Shown piece after piece: positions 39,792 to 48,345 of a stretch of 49,544 bases of DNA (the first letter of the stretch is position 1; the number at the start of each line of letters is the position of its first letter). Origin of the DNA: Pseudomonadota bacterium (GTDB taxonomy: Bacteria; Pseudomonadota; Gammaproteobacteria; Steroidobacterales; Steroidobacteraceae). Below the pieces are notes generated by a model that ran no database searches, was not told the origin of the DNA, and worked only from the letters and a program-made list of their open reading frames with translations. Location of the stretch: the NCBI GenBank assembly GCA_021785405.1, contig JAJYFF010000015.1, positions 1-49,544 of the forward strand. Reading direction: 5' to 3'. A program made the position numbers and the translations under genes.

Positions 39792-40646
39792 CTAGGCAGC
39801 GTCGGCCTCCTGCCGCCGTTGCTGGCGAAACTCGGCTTCCCGGCGCTCCTCTTCGATGTGATCGAGCACCGCATCGACGTCGGCTGCGGTCGTGTCGGCG
39901 GCATAGCGCCCGGTGAGCGGCGTATCCGTCGTCAATTCGCCCGCTTCATACAAAGCCCAGATCTCGCGCGCGTACTCGGTATCGAGCAGCGCCGGCGCGC
40001 TGCGGCCGAACGCCGCGCGCATGTTGTTCACGTCGCGCTCGAGCATCGCGAACGCGTTGTTGTTGCTCGCGGCGTGCACCGCCTGCGGTAGATCGATGAT
40101 GACCGGCCCGCCCGCGCCCACCAGCACGTTGAAGTCCGAAAGATCGCCGTGAATCAGGCCGGCGCACAGCATGCGCACGATCTGCGAGATCATGAACGCG
40201 TGCCACTCGCCGGCTTGTTCGGCCGAGAGCTCGACGTCATTGAGTCGCGGCGCGGGGTGGCCCTCGGCGTCGCACACCAGTTCCATGAGCAGCACGCCTT
40301 CGTGGACCAGGTACGGCGTCGGGACCCGCACACCCGCGGCGGCGAGCAGGTACAACGCGTCCACTTCGGCATTCTTCCACTCGACGTCCTGCACCCGTCG
40401 CCCGTGACGCCCGCGCTTGCTCATCGCGCGCTGATCGCGGCTGTTGCGCATCTTGCGGCCCTCGGTGTACTGCGCGAGCCGGTGGAAGCCGCGGTGCTGC
40501 GCTTCCTTGTAGACCTTGGCGCAGCGGACCTGATCGCCGCAGGCGACGATGAACACGGAGGCTTCCTTGCCGCTCTTCAGGCGGCGCACGACGGCATCGA
40601 CCATTCCGTCCTCGATCAGCGGCTGCAGCCCCGTGGGCGTCTTCAT
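39792..40646 (-). CDS. RIO-family serine protein kinase/ATPase
   Basis: 284 residues from ATG 40646 (MKTPTGLQPLIEDGMVD), which matches the usual beginning of bacterial RIO proteins; the in-frame extension upstream is not conserved-looking. Kinase motifs: SGKEASVFIV (25-34) with Lys44 in CAKVYK, catalytic loop IHGDLSDFNVL with Asp168 and Asn173, and the metal-binding IIDLPQAV with Asp185 in place of DFG. RIO1/RIO2 act in ribosome maturation in eukaryotes and archaea; the role of bacterial members is not established. Confidence 0.92.
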   Translation of the reverse strand: MKTPTGLQPLIEDGMVDAVVRRLKSGKEASVFIVACGDQVRCAKVYKEAQHRGFHRLAQYTEGRKMRNSRDQRAMSKRGRHGRRVQDVEWKNAEVDALYLLAAAGVRVPTPYLVHEGVLLMELVCDAEGHPAPRLNDVELSAEQAGEWHAFMISQIVRMLCAGLIHGDLSDFNVLVGAGGPVIIDLPQAVHAASNNNAFAMLERDVNNMRAAFGRSAPALLDTEYAREIWALYEAGELTTDTPLTGRYAADTTAADVDAVLDHIEEERREAEFRQQRRQEADAA

Positions 40647-40922
40647 ATGGCGTTGAAACTCATTGAGTGTTGCGGGCCCCAGCGGAGCCCGACAGTGCAA
40701 CCAGCGCGTGCAGTCCATTGGCTTGCGACGGCGACCGTCGCGGCAAGTGCCGGCGCATGGCGGCTCGGTTCTTGACGATGGCGGGCATTGTAGGGGCAAA
40801 CCCGCTCCGGGATCGGGGAATTCGCGGCGCCGGCGTGCGAGCAGGTAGAATCCTGGCGGTTAGGCCGGCGAAGACGCCGAGCGCCAGCGACCGATCGTGC
40901 TCTCCAATCCGAGGACTCCCCC

Positions 40923-42311: not shown

Positions 42312-45300
42312 TCAAAATGGCTTGACGAGTTCCATGCCATACGACTTCACGACGCCGTGCCGGAGACAGGCAAACACACCGTTCGCAAAGTACTCACAAA
42401 TGGCACTCGTTGTCTGACGCTGCTTGTGATGAACGCCGTTGAACTCGTCCAGCAACTGGGCTTTGGACAATCCCTTCAGATAGGCGATCTGATGAGGCGA
42501 GGACGCCCGGTCGCCGAAGTATTCAATCGCGTATACACGAGATTCCTGAGGGTCTGGCCCCGTGGTGAAATAGACACTCAAGACCCCGTCGTGACTGTCA
42601 TCGATCGAGTTGTAGGTCCAGGAATGCCGATCCTTCGAGAGCGGCTTCCCGACCGCCCCCAGCAACTGCTGCTTCGTCATCCCAAGCGCGATCGGCCCCA
42701 GCGAATGTTCCGCGAGCGAGTCGATCCAGCGGCTGCGCATCTCGCGCCTGCTCGCTTCTGCCGGCGACCCATCCGGCCACGTCTTGGACCCCGCGTCGCA
42801 TTTCGCCAGCGTATAGGACTTCGTCCATACGCTCGGCAGCACGCGACGACCGATCATCGTACGAAGACGTCGATAGACGTTCCGATCCCGCGCGCGACAC
42901 GCGAAATTATCGTACCGATTGAGCAGGTACTCGCTATGCGGATAGCGGGCGATCAATTCGTCGTACCCCGCTTTCATCGTCGACCAATCGGCCGGAACGG
43001 CTGTGAAAGGATCGAAATCCGGCCCCTCGAGATCCGAATACATCGTATAGAGGCGCGCGTACCGAGCAGCATCGAATCGGGATCCCTTGTCGACGCTCAT
43101 CGCCAATATGAAGCCGTCCACTTGCCCGTACGATCCTCCCCAGCGCGGCATCAGGGCCCGCAACATGGCCTGATACATGGGCCAGTATCTCGGGAACTTC
43201 GCGCGCCCGGCCTCGAATCGAGACCGCATCTGAATCGCGGTCTCGGAATCGTCCAGACGGTTATTCAACGACCACTGATACCAAAGGGGATTCGTCTGCG
43301 CGGGAATCGCGATATCCGCGAGGTCGGCGGCGGCCATTTCGACTCGAAAATTGAACAGCGCCATCTGCCCCGGCATCACGGCGTTTGCATAGCCATGGCC
43401 GCGCGCCGACCACGCCCAGTTCTCGAGTGCGTCCGCCTCGACGAGATCTGCATTGACCGGATTCCGAATGCTGCGCCTCCAATCGGCGGTTCGCGCCAGA
43501 ACCTCCTGGATCGATAGGCCGCCGTAACTCATGAGCGCATCGATGCCGGCGACGAGTCCGGATAACCTGGAAGTCCCGTCGGGCAATCGGTCCCGTGGAT
43601 CCTCGACCTTGCGCATCAGACCCTCGAGGTCTCGATAGTCGCCGGCCATGAAGAGCCGCTGCGCTCGACAGCCGATCGCATGCCGTAGGGACGGCCCGTC
43701 GGTCGCGTCGTCCTTGGGGTCGAAATCGGTGACATCCCCGGGCGGCGCGGTCACGCAATGGGAGTACGCCCGTTGGAAGAGCGAACGAAGCGCGACGATC
43801 GGTCGCGCTTCCGACAAGGGCCTCGCACGCTGTGCCATGTTCGCCCGAACGGCCATCAGATTCAGCTGCGCCGCCGTGCGATTCGTCTCCTTCATCAGCT
43901 TCTGAGCGGTCGCCAATGCCGCCGGGTCCTGGTCGAGCGTCGCGGCAATCAGTGCCTTGGCCCATCGCACGCGCAGCCGGACGAAATGACCGACCAACAG
44001 CGCATAGGGTCGTTCCGGGCCGGTCAATGTCCGGTTTTCGCTCGTGATGCGCGCGTCCGCAGTCTTCCAAAACGGCAGGATGTCGCTTTGAAATCTCTGA
44101 CCCAGCTGGGCGTCACTGATCGCCCCGGCGCTGACGGCGACGCCGAGCGCTTGCCACTCGCGCAAATTCTTATCCTGGCCGAGCACATACCAGGCGTGCG
44201 CGCGCAGATAGCGATCTGGCGGCGACATTTGCGGGCTCTTGCCGTGAATCCAGCCGAAAGCGCCGATGACGGCGACCACGAAAAACGCGGCCGCGGCCAT
44301 CACCTGCCGATGCGGGAAGTCGACCCGTCGGTCACTTTCCAGCGGGCGCGCCAGACACCAGCCTATGACCAAGCCACCGACCAAACCACCCACATGGGCG
44401 GCGTTGTCGATGCTTGGGTTCGTCGCGCCCGCGTATAGGCTATACAAGGCGAAAACGATCGTGCTCAACCAGTGGCGTCGCGCAATCGATCGAGGCACCC
44501 CGCACCCCGGACGCAGCAAGAAGGCGATATACGCGCCAATCAGGCCAAATATCGCGCCAGACGCGCCGACGCTGCTGAGCGTCGGCGCCCAGACGATGCT
44601 CGTCAGGCCGGCGATGACTCCGGCGCCAAAGTAGATCGCCATTGCCGCGAAGTTGCCGAACAACTGTTCGGTTCGACGCCCGATATTCCATAGAACCCAC
44701 AGATTGACGAGCAGATGAACGATCGAGTAGTGAATGAACAGCGCCGTCAGCAGGCGCCACCACTGACCTCCGGTCGTCAACGGGCCGAAATTCGCACCCC
44801 ACGCCCACAACGTCGGCAGGTCGAACCCGAGCACCTGTTTCGTCGATATCGCCATCGCGACGAATACGGCGAGATTCGCGAGCACGAGCGCTGGCGTCAT
44901 CCAGATGCGTGTGCCCGTTTCGCGCAAGCGCCTTTGAAAGTCGCGTACGTCGTTCCAGCGCTCGTCGAAGTCCGAAGTGCGCGCCGTCGGTAGAGATTCC
45001 ACGAGTCGCGCAGCCGCTTCCGCCGAGTTCGCGACGAATTCGATACGCCGCTTCACCAGACCTTGACGGTCGACGTCGAAGCGAATCGATGCATCGACGC
45101 GCGCGACGTTGCGGATCTGTTCCGTCGGGATCGCCACTTCGGCTTTCATGGCCACGCCGAGCCAGGTGCGCTGCCACCCGAGCAAGGCGACCGTGTCGGG
45201 GCGCGTCTCGATCGCACCCGCACCGTACACCAGGCGTCGGTGCAGCTTGGCGGCGAACCAACCGCCCCAACCCCCGAAGCGCGTGAATCGTCCCTCGCAA

Positions 45301-45512
45301 ACGAAGCCCGACCGCGAATGTCTCAGGCTGCGCGCCTCGCGTGCCGCGATTTCATCGTGCAGATTGTGCGCGTTCTGCGGAAATTGCCGTGCATCGAGCC
45401 GCTCGCGGAGCGCGTGCAGTTGCGCGGTCGAGTACTGGGAGTAGTCCACCGTTCCATCGGTGGCATCGGCCGGAGTCTCGGGATCGTCGCTCGCGATGGT
45501 CTGGTCGGTCAT
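42312..45512 (-). CDS. Rhomboid-family intramembrane protease fused to a large C-terminal region (DUF4034-like and BamE-like parts)
   Basis: 1066 residues; ATG 45512 follows AAAGGGG. Residues 1-200 are soluble, with a PH-like basic segment. A rhomboid core occupies about 204-390: His261-x4-His266-x3-Asn270 (HYSIVHLLVN) in the second helix, catalytic Ser318 in VGASGAIFG, and His373 in NAAHVGGLVGG. The dyad and accessory residues are all present, so it should be active. A further helix (404-421) would put the remaining 640 residues in the periplasm if the N-terminus is inside. That part is helical and TPR-like (430-780), then DUF4034-like (about 780-900: MPRWGGSYGQVDGF, YDELIARYPHSEYLLNRYDNFAC), then a BamE/SmpA-like end (about 938-1000: LGMTKQQLLGAVGKP). 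Domain names beyond rhomboid are by eye. The substrate is unknown. Confidence 0.85.
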   Translation of the reverse strand: MTDQTIASDDPETPADATDGTVDYSQYSTAQLHALRERLDARQFPQNAHNLHDEIAAREARSLRHSRSGFVCEGRFTRFGGWGGWFAAKLHRRLVYGAGAIETRPDTVALLGWQRTWLGVAMKAEVAIPTEQIRNVARVDASIRFDVDRQGLVKRRIEFVANSAEAAARLVESLPTARTSDFDERWNDVRDFQRRLRETGTRIWMTPALVLANLAVFVAMAISTKQVLGFDLPTLWAWGANFGPLTTGGQWWRLLTALFIHYSIVHLLVNLWVLWNIGRRTEQLFGNFAAMAIYFGAGVIAGLTSIVWAPTLSSVGASGAIFGLIGAYIAFLLRPGCGVPRSIARRHWLSTIVFALYSLYAGATNPSIDNAAHVGGLVGGLVIGWCLARPLESDRRVDFPHRQVMAAAAFFVVAVIGAFGWIHGKSPQMSPPDRYLRAHAWYVLGQDKNLREWQALGVAVSAGAISDAQLGQRFQSDILPFWKTADARITSENRTLTGPERPYALLVGHFVRLRVRWAKALIAATLDQDPAALATAQKLMKETNRTAAQLNLMAVRANMAQRARPLSEARPIVALRSLFQRAYSHCVTAPPGDVTDFDPKDDATDGPSLRHAIGCRAQRLFMAGDYRDLEGLMRKVEDPRDRLPDGTSRLSGLVAGIDALMSYGGLSIQEVLARTADWRRSIRNPVNADLVEADALENWAWSARGHGYANAVMPGQMALFNFRVEMAAADLADIAIPAQTNPLWYQWSLNNRLDDSETAIQMRSRFEAGRAKFPRYWPMYQAMLRALMPRWGGSYGQVDGFILAMSVDKGSRFDAARYARLYTMYSDLEGPDFDPFTAVPADWSTMKAGYDELIARYPHSEYLLNRYDNFACRARDRNVYRRLRTMIGRRVLPSVWTKSYTLAKCDAGSKTWPDGSPAEASRREMRSRWIDSLAEHSLGPIALGMTKQQLLGAVGKPLSKDRHSWTYNSIDDSHDGVLSVYFTTGPDPQESRVYAIEYFGDRASSPHQIAYLKGLSKAQLLDEFNGVHHKQRQTTSAICEYFANGVFACLRHGVVKSYGMELVKPF

Positions 45513-45823: not shown

Positions 45824-46468
45824 TTATTGGGTCGACGGCGCCGCATCGCCTGCCGGTGACGGTGCATTCTCGATCAAGATGATGCCGACATCGTCGTGTA
45901 AATCGCCACTGCCAAACCGCAGGCCCGCGATCAAATCGTGGACGGCGACCGCGAGCGATGCCTCGGTCGCGCGTCGCGCAATGTCTTCCCCGGCCGCGTA
46001 TTTGAATAAGCCGTCGGTGGCGATCAGCAGCCGCCCGGTTAGCGCGGTTGGCCCAAAGCACAGGGGCAGGGCTTCATCGGACCCGAGCAGGGGCTTACGA
46101 TTCTGGCTCTCGGTGAGATCGAGCGTCCCTTTACCCGTGAGCATCCATGCCGCGGAGTCCCCTACGCTCGCACCGAAGACTCGGCCCTCCGCGATTTCGA
46201 CGAGGACGGCGGTACACTGACCACCGGTCCGCACCAGTGCCTGGTCGATCTCGTATAGGCACCTCGCCCAATCCTCGGCTGTGCCTGCATCCCTTTCGCG
46301 AAATCTCTTGGCGGCGAAGGAACAGGTCAATTCCGCCGCAACGGCGCCGTGCCCCGAACCGCCCGCCCCGTCCGCGACGATCGCCAGCGTTCGTGCCCCA
46401 CGACGTTCGACGTGAACACGATCCTCGCCTCTCCCTCCGCTGACGACCTGATGCGCGATCATTAGCAT
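45824..46468 (-). CDS. PP2C-type serine/threonine protein phosphatase
   Basis: 214 residues from ATG 46468, chosen because GGAGGA (46475-46480) is 6 bases upstream; an in-frame GTG abuts the ribosome site and is unlikely. PPM/PP2C motifs in order: GEDRV (Asp17), VADGAGGSGHG (Asp33-Gly34, metal), QCTAVLVEI, FGASVGDSAAW, LLIATDGLFKYAAGED and a C-terminal HDDVGIILIE with metal-binding Asp. The metal site appears complete. It should dephosphorylate phospho-Ser/Thr proteins. No partner kinase is nearby; a PPP-family phosphatase is encoded two genes upstream on the same strand. Confidence 0.88.
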   Translation of the reverse strand: MLMIAHQVVSGGRGEDRVHVERRGARTLAIVADGAGGSGHGAVAAELTCSFAAKRFRERDAGTAEDWARCLYEIDQALVRTGGQCTAVLVEIAEGRVFGASVGDSAAWMLTGKGTLDLTESQNRKPLLGSDEALPLCFGPTALTGRLLIATDGLFKYAAGEDIARRATEASLAVAVHDLIAGLRFGSGDLHDDVGIILIENAPSPAGDAAPSTQ

Positions 46469-46797
46469 GGCCACTCCTCCGAGAAAATAAAGCCATTGCG
46501 CCCGGTAATCGACGCTGTCGTTGCCTTCGCGCCCATCCGATGCGCTCGAGGCCGCCGGCCAGATTCTCCCATGCCAGAGGTCGACGGCGATTCCTCAGAT
46601 ACGGTATCAGTGCGAGGTAAGCGCCGTCGCTGCGGCAAAGTCGATCTCGACCAGAAGGTCAGATCCTCCCGCGCTCCGTGCTCGCGCAGCAGCTCGAGCG
46701 GCATATAGCGTTCCTGCACCGAGGCGAGCCAGATCAGGGCCGCCACCTTGCCGGGGTAGGCAGGTTGGCAGGAGCGCGAGGGCATTTCTTCACGCAC
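46462..46797 (-). CDS. Uncertain small ORF upstream of the PP2C gene
   Basis: 111 codons with a GTG start (46797); ATG 46785 is a later option. Its TAA (46462-46464) overlaps the PP2C start by 7 bases, as expected for a coupled gene. The first half (AYPGKVAALIWLASVQERYM then PLELLREHGAREDLTF) looks like real protein, but the second half turns Arg/Ser/Pro-rich. A different frame over the second half gives more protein-like sequence (GAYLALIPYLRNRRRPLAWENL), so a frameshift is possible. No family recognised. Confidence 0.35.
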   Translation of the reverse strand: MREEMPSRSCQPAYPGKVAALIWLASVQERYMPLELLREHGAREDLTFWSRSTLPQRRRLPRTDTVSEESPSTSGMGESGRRPRAHRMGAKATTASITGRNGFIFSEEWPC

Positions 46798-47253: not shown

Positions 47254-48345
47254 TTACTGGTGCACACACTCCGGCGGGTCGTGGTCAAAGACGACTTCCT
47301 GCTCAGGCCAGCGCAGCGCCGCCAGCCGGCCATGAAATTTCGCGGTTCGACCATGCTTTCGCTCCTTGAACCGGGCACCCGCGCTGTAATCGATACAAAA
47401 AGCGACTGCTCGCCCTTCCGCGTTCCGGTGCCAGCCGCAAGGTTGCTCCTCGTCGAATAGGTTGGGCTCGCCTTTGCTATAGATCGCGTGAGAGGATCGG
47501 TCCCACCAGCGCCAATAGTGACCAAATACCACGGGCGTTGCGTCCTGGTAGTCAGTCCACCAGCGTACCCGCTCCACAAAGCGCCATTTCCCAGCCGCAT
47601 AGAAAGGCGACTTCGCAATCCGCTCAACGCCCGAGGTCAGGACCCGTATCGGATTGCTCATCTGGTAGTACTCCTCGTGGGCGGCGACGTTATGCAGGAA
47701 CGGTGGCGCCGGAGTCTCCGCCTTGATGGCTTTGTCGTACGCATGTCTTTCCGCTCTACCCGCGACGGCGAGGCGTTTGGCTTGTTCTGTCTCCTGCGCC
47801 TGCCGGTCGAAATCATCATAGGCCGCGAGTACCGTGCCATGGCATGCGCGGCATGCCTCGACGTCCGCCGTTCTCCACGCCGCGTGGACGACTCGCAAGT
47901 CCGTCCGCTCGAGTGCTACCGGCAGCGTGCAGAGAAACGCTCGAATCGCGATTGCCTCCTCTGCAGTCACCCGCTTGGTTGGACCGAAGGTCGCCTCGTG
48001 GTGCGAGTGATCGCCTTCGAAGTACCAGTGGTTCCCATGCTTTTGTTCATTACGCAGCAAGTTCAGCTCATGATTGCCGACGACACATTGCGCCCGGCCA
48101 CGCTCGACGAGACCCTTTACGAGTTCGATGACCGCAGGACTGTCGGGTCCGCGATCGCAGAGGTCGCCGACAAATACGAGTCGGCGTGCGTCGGGATGGG
48201 ACCCCGCCTCGTCATACCCGAGCTTCCCGAACAGCGCCCTGAGTGCGTCGATCTCCCCATGGACATCACCGACGATGTCGAGCGGGCCTTCGACCAGCGG
48301 CTGTATCAACCGCTGCTCGCGGCTTGCTACGTTGTTTGTTATCAC
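47254..48345 (-). CDS. PPP-type metallophosphoesterase
   Basis: 363 residues, GTG start at 48345 with GGAGCAGGA upstream. The three metal-binding motifs are complete: GDVHG (26-30), GDLCDRG (60-66) and GNHE (90-93); a further His is in VVHAAWRT and another in VVFGHYWRW. This places it with the calcineurin-like PPP group that includes PrpE/ApaH-like and bacterial serine/threonine phosphatases. Between the core and the C-terminal metal histidine is a long insert (about 165-265). Substrate (protein or dinucleoside polyphosphate) undetermined. First gene of the minus-strand accessory set. Confidence 0.9.
   Translation of the reverse strand: MITNNVASREQRLIQPLVEGPLDIVGDVHGEIDALRALFGKLGYDEAGSHPDARRLVFVGDLCDRGPDSPAVIELVKGLVERGRAQCVVGNHELNLLRNEQKHGNHWYFEGDHSHHEATFGPTKRVTAEEAIAIRAFLCTLPVALERTDLRVVHAAWRTADVEACRACHGTVLAAYDDFDRQAQETEQAKRLAVAGRAERHAYDKAIKAETPAPPFLHNVAAHEEYYQMSNPIRVLTSGVERIAKSPFYAAGKWRFVERVRWWTDYQDATPVVFGHYWRWWDRSSHAIYSKGEPNLFDEEQPCGWHRNAEGRAVAFCIDYSAGARFKERKHGRTAKFHGRLAALRWPEQEVVFDHDPPECVHQ

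Follow-up and report, generated by a model that had tools for sequence, protein, structure and literature searches.

A rhomboid protease with three C-terminal modules in a family-specific clade of the Steroidobacteraceae

Active rhomboid proteases are defined by a Ser-His dyad together with the residues of an HxxxxHxxxN motif. To our knowledge, most bacterial rhomboids have no assigned substrate, and we know of no large C-terminal arm in GlpG. The Bacillus subtilis rhomboid YqgP (GluP) has a seventh membrane helix. As far as the accessible part of its description goes, YqgP is also the closest published system to the protein reported here (PMC7231995). There, a cytosolic N-terminal domain with a restriction-endonuclease-type fold binds Mn/Zn, and an extracellular domain of three TPRs is thought by the authors likely to bind proteins or peptides. 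YqgP acts as a substrate adaptor of FtsH, independently of its own protease activity (accessible part of PMC7231995). Judged from titles and the beginnings of abstracts, the open-licence literature yielded nothing on the architecture, family or substrate of our protein, and no paper found there names DUF4034; to that extent the family lacks a prior description or a known substrate.

The protein is encoded in what we call the window, the whole 49,544-nucleotide stretch of DNA analysed, from a genome (G000) of the family Steroidobacteraceae. A sequence-only reading of this stretch had proposed a rhomboid fused to a C-terminal region of about 640 residues. The fusion is borne out: one uninterrupted frame runs exactly from 42312 to 45512 on the minus strand, with an ATG start, 1066 amino acids plus a stop, no internal stop, and a coding-type third-position GC of 0.76. 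From the N to the C terminus, it encodes a PH/PTB-like domain, the rhomboid core, a further transmembrane helix and some 640 residues in three modules, namely a helical, a DUF4034-related and a BLIP/BamE-like one (Table 1). The window protein is a real, conserved, multi-domain rhomboid in a family-specific clade with varied tails. Our computations show an intact reading frame and its domain content, conservation of the active site, variation among the tails and purifying selection outside the tail.

Table 1. Features of the rhomboid gene, in window positions and protein residues
Feature	Residues	Window position	Strand	Basis or remark
Whole gene		42312..45512	(-)	1066 aa + stop
PH/PTB-like domain	66-175	44988..45317	(-)	model and Foldseek; cytosolic by inference
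Rhomboid core	205-390	44343..44900	(-)	Pfam, invariant catalytic residues, Foldseek to iRhom and GlpG
Ser318	318	44559-44561	(-)	catalytic residue
His373	373	44394-44396	(-)	catalytic residue
Further (seventh) TM helix	404-422	44247..44303	(-)	hydropathy 2.38; helix 401-425 in model
Helical domain (LINK)	436-575	43788..44207	(-)	helical model; profile match in 14/18 clade copies, two weak
DUF4034-related helical domain	600-915	42768..43715	(-)	Cys615, Cys872, Cys905 inside
BLIP/BamE-like tail	936-1065	42318..42707	(-)	profile match; second degenerate repeat by eye only

How does this build compare with YqgP? Both have a cytosolic N-terminal domain, a rhomboid core and a C-terminal helical domain outside the membrane, the sides being predicted for the window protein. 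They seem to differ at both ends. The N-terminus of the window protein looks PH/PTB-like in a model of moderate quality, and in place of three TPRs there is an arm of about 640 residues, DUF4034-related and ending in a BLIP/BamE-like tail (accessible part of PMC7231995). Pfam lists no TPR family for the window protein, whether searched whole or by its C-terminal region. On the features compared, we do not class it as an orthologue of YqgP. Its mode of action is nevertheless most likely similar: proteolysis within the membrane, with outlying domains that bring in substrates or partners. The form of this idea that we favour, with a confidence somewhat above even, is a rhomboid protease with a periplasmic arm for docking substrates or partners and a PH/PTB-like domain that binds on the inner face. 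In this proposed docking role, the arm would grip a substrate or partner by its periplasmic portion and deliver the bound protein to the intramembrane active site. The PH/PTB-like domain would bind something on the inner face, and the choice of proteins for cleavage or transfer would lie with the arm. The sequence-only reading had suggested a sensor or sheddase, roles that would be further candidates.

A complete, probably active core had been proposed, and its residues are where the proposal put them. Pfam Rhomboid (PF01694) matches residues 249-389 at E=1.8e-32 and 112.9 bits against a cut-off of 22.6; DUF1751 is listed as well, below its cut-off. Ser318 and His373, together with the HxxxxHxxxN residues His261, His266 and Asn270, are invariant in all 18 copies of the clade described below. 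Every one of the 21 matches in a PDB sequence search with the window protein is an iRhom or GlpG, aligned over the core, and the three Foldseek matches at E up to 0.001 for a model of residues 1-429 are all iRhom or GlpG, over the membrane part. The protein has the core and catalytic pair of GlpG, but lies far under the GlpG equivalog cut-off (TIGR04239; 55.2 bits vs 250). It also falls short of the curated cut-off for rhombosortase (TIGR03902; 36.5 vs 84). The window protein retains its catalytic residues and is most likely a rhomboid protease of the inner membrane, predicted to be active.

Might cleavage be secondary? The rhomboid could instead serve as an adaptor, rather like a pseudoprotease, mainly recruiting membrane proteins for a protease such as FtsH with the arm as a scaffold. 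YqgP provides the precedent, since it acts on behalf of FtsH independently of its own proteolysis (accessible part of PMC7231995), and the inactive iRhoms rank first in the Foldseek search with the N-terminal half. A pure scaffold, however, would have no need of Ser318, His373 and the HxxxxHxxxN residues that all 18 copies retain, and we consider the adaptor role unlikely.

For the protease with a docking arm, the inner-face contact would fall to the N-terminal domain, which presumably lies on the cytosolic side. The model of residues 1-429, built from a five-row alignment, has a mean pLDDT of 61.3; its PH/PTB-like part ranges from 40 to 85 by block of ten, with strands over residues 71-161 and a helix at 164-173. 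With this model Foldseek finds PH and PTB domains at E about 0.003-0.02, among them those of Dok7, Dok1 and IRS-1 (probability 1.00, E about 0.008-0.02, target TM 0.36-0.66), matches that we infer to lie on the N-terminal domain. Our PH/PTB-like profile detects 13 of the 18 clade copies, the exceptions being G432, G433, G464, G478 and the second copy of G508. The inner-face part of the reading therefore does not extend to every member of the clade.

After the core, the sequence-only reading had placed a seventh helix and, beyond it, a periplasmic region. A strongly hydrophobic segment does follow the core: residues 404-422 are the strongest of five segments that pass the threshold in a plain hydropathy scan of the protein. 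Because only these five pass, we place the remaining membrane helices from the Pfam rhomboid match and the model. In the stretch examined, four Arg/Lys residues precede the further helix of the window protein and two follow it. The same bias is seen in 13 of the 14 clade copies in which the stretch is complete (it is incomplete in G487, G497, G507 and G589); in G588, Arg/Lys residues are fewer before the helix than after. Four cysteines lie within residues 430-920, among which we expect disulfides. Cys586, just before the DUF4034-related domain, and Cys615 are invariant in 9/9 of the clade copies that reach this pair, and Cys872 and Cys905 in 7/7 of those that reach theirs. The latter pair is also present in three stand-alone rows, from two proteins. 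By eye, the stand-alone DUF4034 proteins L032 and L048 have starts that resemble signal peptides. The further helix, the Arg/Lys bias, the invariant cysteines and the signal-like starts fit an exported, disulfide-bonded arm without proving it, and the reversed count in G588 goes against it. The arm is probably periplasmic.

What is the arm made of? In a model of residues 425-1066 (mean pLDDT 54.8), the chain is helical to about residue 950 and then forms strands and a helix. Of the 14 blocks of ten in the first module, 12 have pLDDT values of 59-88, and the final two drop to 31-40. This poor model gave no Foldseek match at E up to 0.001, and a PDB profile search with the helical and DUF4034 region gave two chance-level matches, unlike the tail profile discussed below.

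The kinship with DUF4034 (PF13226) had been proposed from the sequence, and it is supported through relatives. The whole window protein has no Pfam match to this family at E up to 1; its C-terminal region alone reaches 13.7 bits (E=0.041), under the gathering score of 21.3 bits, and the search of the window genome with the DUF4034 family found nothing. A contig search with four C-terminal rows, in which 72 stretches matched the pattern, contained five relatives, L072-L076. (None of the 17 stretches picked up in a pattern search of contigs with the full-length protein was a relative.) L073, L074 and L075 align with the first 900 or so residues of the window protein at 37-41% identity. L074, from Peristeroidobacter soli, a member of the same family Steroidobacteraceae, scores 34.8 bits against DUF4034, and L075, from Steroidobacter agaridevorans, scores 36.5 bits, both over the cut-off; the full-length relative L073 stays below it at 15.8 bits. 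L076, from Actinomadura, is a weak match outside the family. We accept the DUF4034 link on the strength of L074 and L075, which share the architecture and score over the cut-off; the window protein does not and would be insufficient alone.

Relatives of the arm also occur on their own. Residues 430-1066 have a match in 10 of 369 genomes of the class, the window genome included. In seven of the nine others, which were scanned for DUF4034, L032, L033, L037 and L040 exceed the cut-off, and L034, L035 and L036 do not. The rhomboid profile is absent from the stand-alone DUF4034 relatives listed. L048 (481-2598, genome G529) has a signal-like start followed by two DUF4034-related domains in tandem, and lacks a rhomboid. 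L035 (167-1780, genome G090), DUF4034-like below the Pfam cut-off, appears by eye to be membrane-bound; its C-terminal end carries a ClpS-like domain that is barely over the cut-off (23.3 vs 23 bits).

The last module had been read as ending in a BamE-like fold. We made a profile from five tails (the window, L049, L050, L051 and L055) and compared it with 177,635 PDB sequences. At E up to 10 there are 24 matches, and these belong to BLIP and BamE only: nine BLIP sequences at E about 0.004 over 30 residues and fifteen BamE sequences at E 0.06-0.14 over about 50. None falls under E 0.001. Many are variants of one protein, so that they count as two families rather than 24 witnesses. An hhalign comparison of the tail with eleven BamE sequences of the family gives a probability of 30.7 and an E of 5e-4 over 32 columns. 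The tail part of the model has pLDDT under 50, and Pfam lists no BamE (PF04355) match for the window protein at E up to 1. The data thus support a resemblance in sequence to BLIP and BamE, the sole two PDB families that the tail matches, weakly and over 30 to 50 residues; membership of the Pfam BamE family did not hold up.

The tail profile is found in at least 4 of 200 family genomes. Among 321 genomes of the class it is found in the window genome, plus one weak match with internal stops. An independent case is the tail of G589, which was found through its rhomboid core and matches the profile at 7.5e-28; it is 35% identical to the window tail, the highest among the five other tails. It had gone unreported in the 200-genome search, in which G589 may or may not have been included, so the tail counts are lower bounds.

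To place the window protein, we ran a profile of residues 1-429 against 217 family genomes. Eighteen copies in 17 genomes score at least 220 bits, and the next score is 89.5; the distribution is patchy (17/217). In 326 genomes of the order, seven match at E up to 1e-30, all of the same family. These searches score a limited number of candidates per genome. At least one module follows the core in all 18 copies, in G588 and G478 by weak matches only (E 2e-4 and 4e-4). Five copies have the helical module only (G432, G433, G464, G478 and G588, weakly in G478 and G588). Eight have the helical and DUF4034 modules (G015, G454, both copies of G508, G523, G563, G571 and G602), of which the G015 copy is cut by a contig end and the second G508 copy is shortened in frame. 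Four have the BLIP/BamE-like module only (G487, G497, G507 and G589), and the window protein alone has all three. Some of these assignments hold by construction: the helical and DUF4034 profiles were built from G000, G454, G508 and G523, and the tail profile from G000, G487, G497, G507 and L055. The independent rows are G015, G563, G571, G602, the second G508 copy, G432, G433, G464 and G589.

The helical and DUF4034 profile is present in 20 of the 217 family genomes. Eight have the rhomboid-DUF4034 fusion, three have a rhomboid with the helical domain, and nine have DUF4034-like frames without the rhomboid profile, including the tandem of G529. The second G508 rhomboid (L137, 4415-6451) matches window residues 172-746 and looks shortened at both ends.

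Do the tailed rhomboids form a group of their own? In a tree with all 49 rows, the long-branch rows L063 and L004, which lack modules, fall weakly among the tailed rhomboids. Once L063, L004, L059, L027 and L067 are omitted, with L064 kept out as the same gene as L004, 15 clade cores are split at 100/100 from 29 cores that lack modules and were sampled from relatives. This clean split appears only after removal of the long branches, and G588, G589 and G478 are in neither tree. L064 (1403-3115, genome G009) is a different long rhomboid from the genus of the window genome, a 571-residue frame with extensions on both sides by eye.

The core is constant across the clade and the arm varies, so it is probably the arm that decides which proteins the protease cleaves or passes on; the pattern suggests such a choice of targets. 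A bolder version, which we hold to be doubtful, is that the clade rhomboids have interchangeable periplasmic arms that are the substrate receptors. One conserved membrane cutter would be retargeted by module swapping, and the tail would bind either an enzyme of the envelope or the machinery of outer-membrane assembly, tying intramembrane cleavage to the state of the envelope.

Could the tail instead be a tether? The protein would then be an envelope sensor, its protease anchored through the BLIP/BamE-like tail either to the machinery that assembles the outer membrane or to the cell wall. This idea draws on the restriction of the profile matches to BLIP and BamE, and on a TonB_C protein of G487, L055, that bears the same tail. 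The similarity is, however, short and weak, as the hhalign comparison indicates, and a true BamE gene is present elsewhere in the window genome. Furthermore, 13 of the 18 clade copies show no tail (two of these, G015 and the second of G508, are incomplete), so a function common to the clade does not require it. We judge the tether quite improbable. L055 is encoded at 3698-5248 of L133.

Selection was estimated for four domains in two species pairs, with the tail excluded. Between G000 and G015, a 79% relative whose copy ends at residue 673 at a contig end, dN/dS is 0.14-0.35 by domain, up to that residue; between G508 and G523 it is 0.19-0.30. The compared part of residues 1-673 is under purifying selection. 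That the gene is a recent fusion or read-through with a functionless tail is very improbable: the three-module form is seen in the window genome alone, and the dN/dS values stop short of the tail where the relative ends, but each module occurs on clade rhomboids of other genera and selection maintains the compared part.

The clade offers natural swap experiments on how a rhomboid chooses its targets, with one core bearing different, probably periplasmic modules. DUF4034 is now tied to an enzyme open to assay.

The surroundings of the gene contain, downstream, an Ada-type methyltransferase and a RIO kinase (39795-40799) and, upstream, a PP2C-type phosphatase (45827-46474, minus strand) and a calcineurin-like phosphoesterase (47257-48345, minus strand). 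The PP2C-type phosphatase gives a weak PADLOC match, PDC-M21C. Among the 18 clade loci no shared operon was found, and the only neighbours to recur do so in closely related genomes or at a distance from the rhomboid. The recurring families are confined to the pairs G464/G478, G432/G433 and G508/G523; G000 and G015 have two genes in common, away from the rhomboid in both, and G015 has single neighbour genes in common with G588 and with G589. The loci compared are of unequal lengths, and their genes were picked by a composition rule that missed the G432 rhomboid. Promoter and terminator patterns around the gene are no more frequent than in shuffles. A role as a defence gene was rejected, the window protein having no PADLOC match at E up to 0.01. 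Among mobile elements, a search of 72,556 plasmid records with residues 430-1066 brought up nothing related at E up to 0.01. Matches in phages come from 8 of 50,697 records, and all of them lie between residues 222 and 373, within the core.
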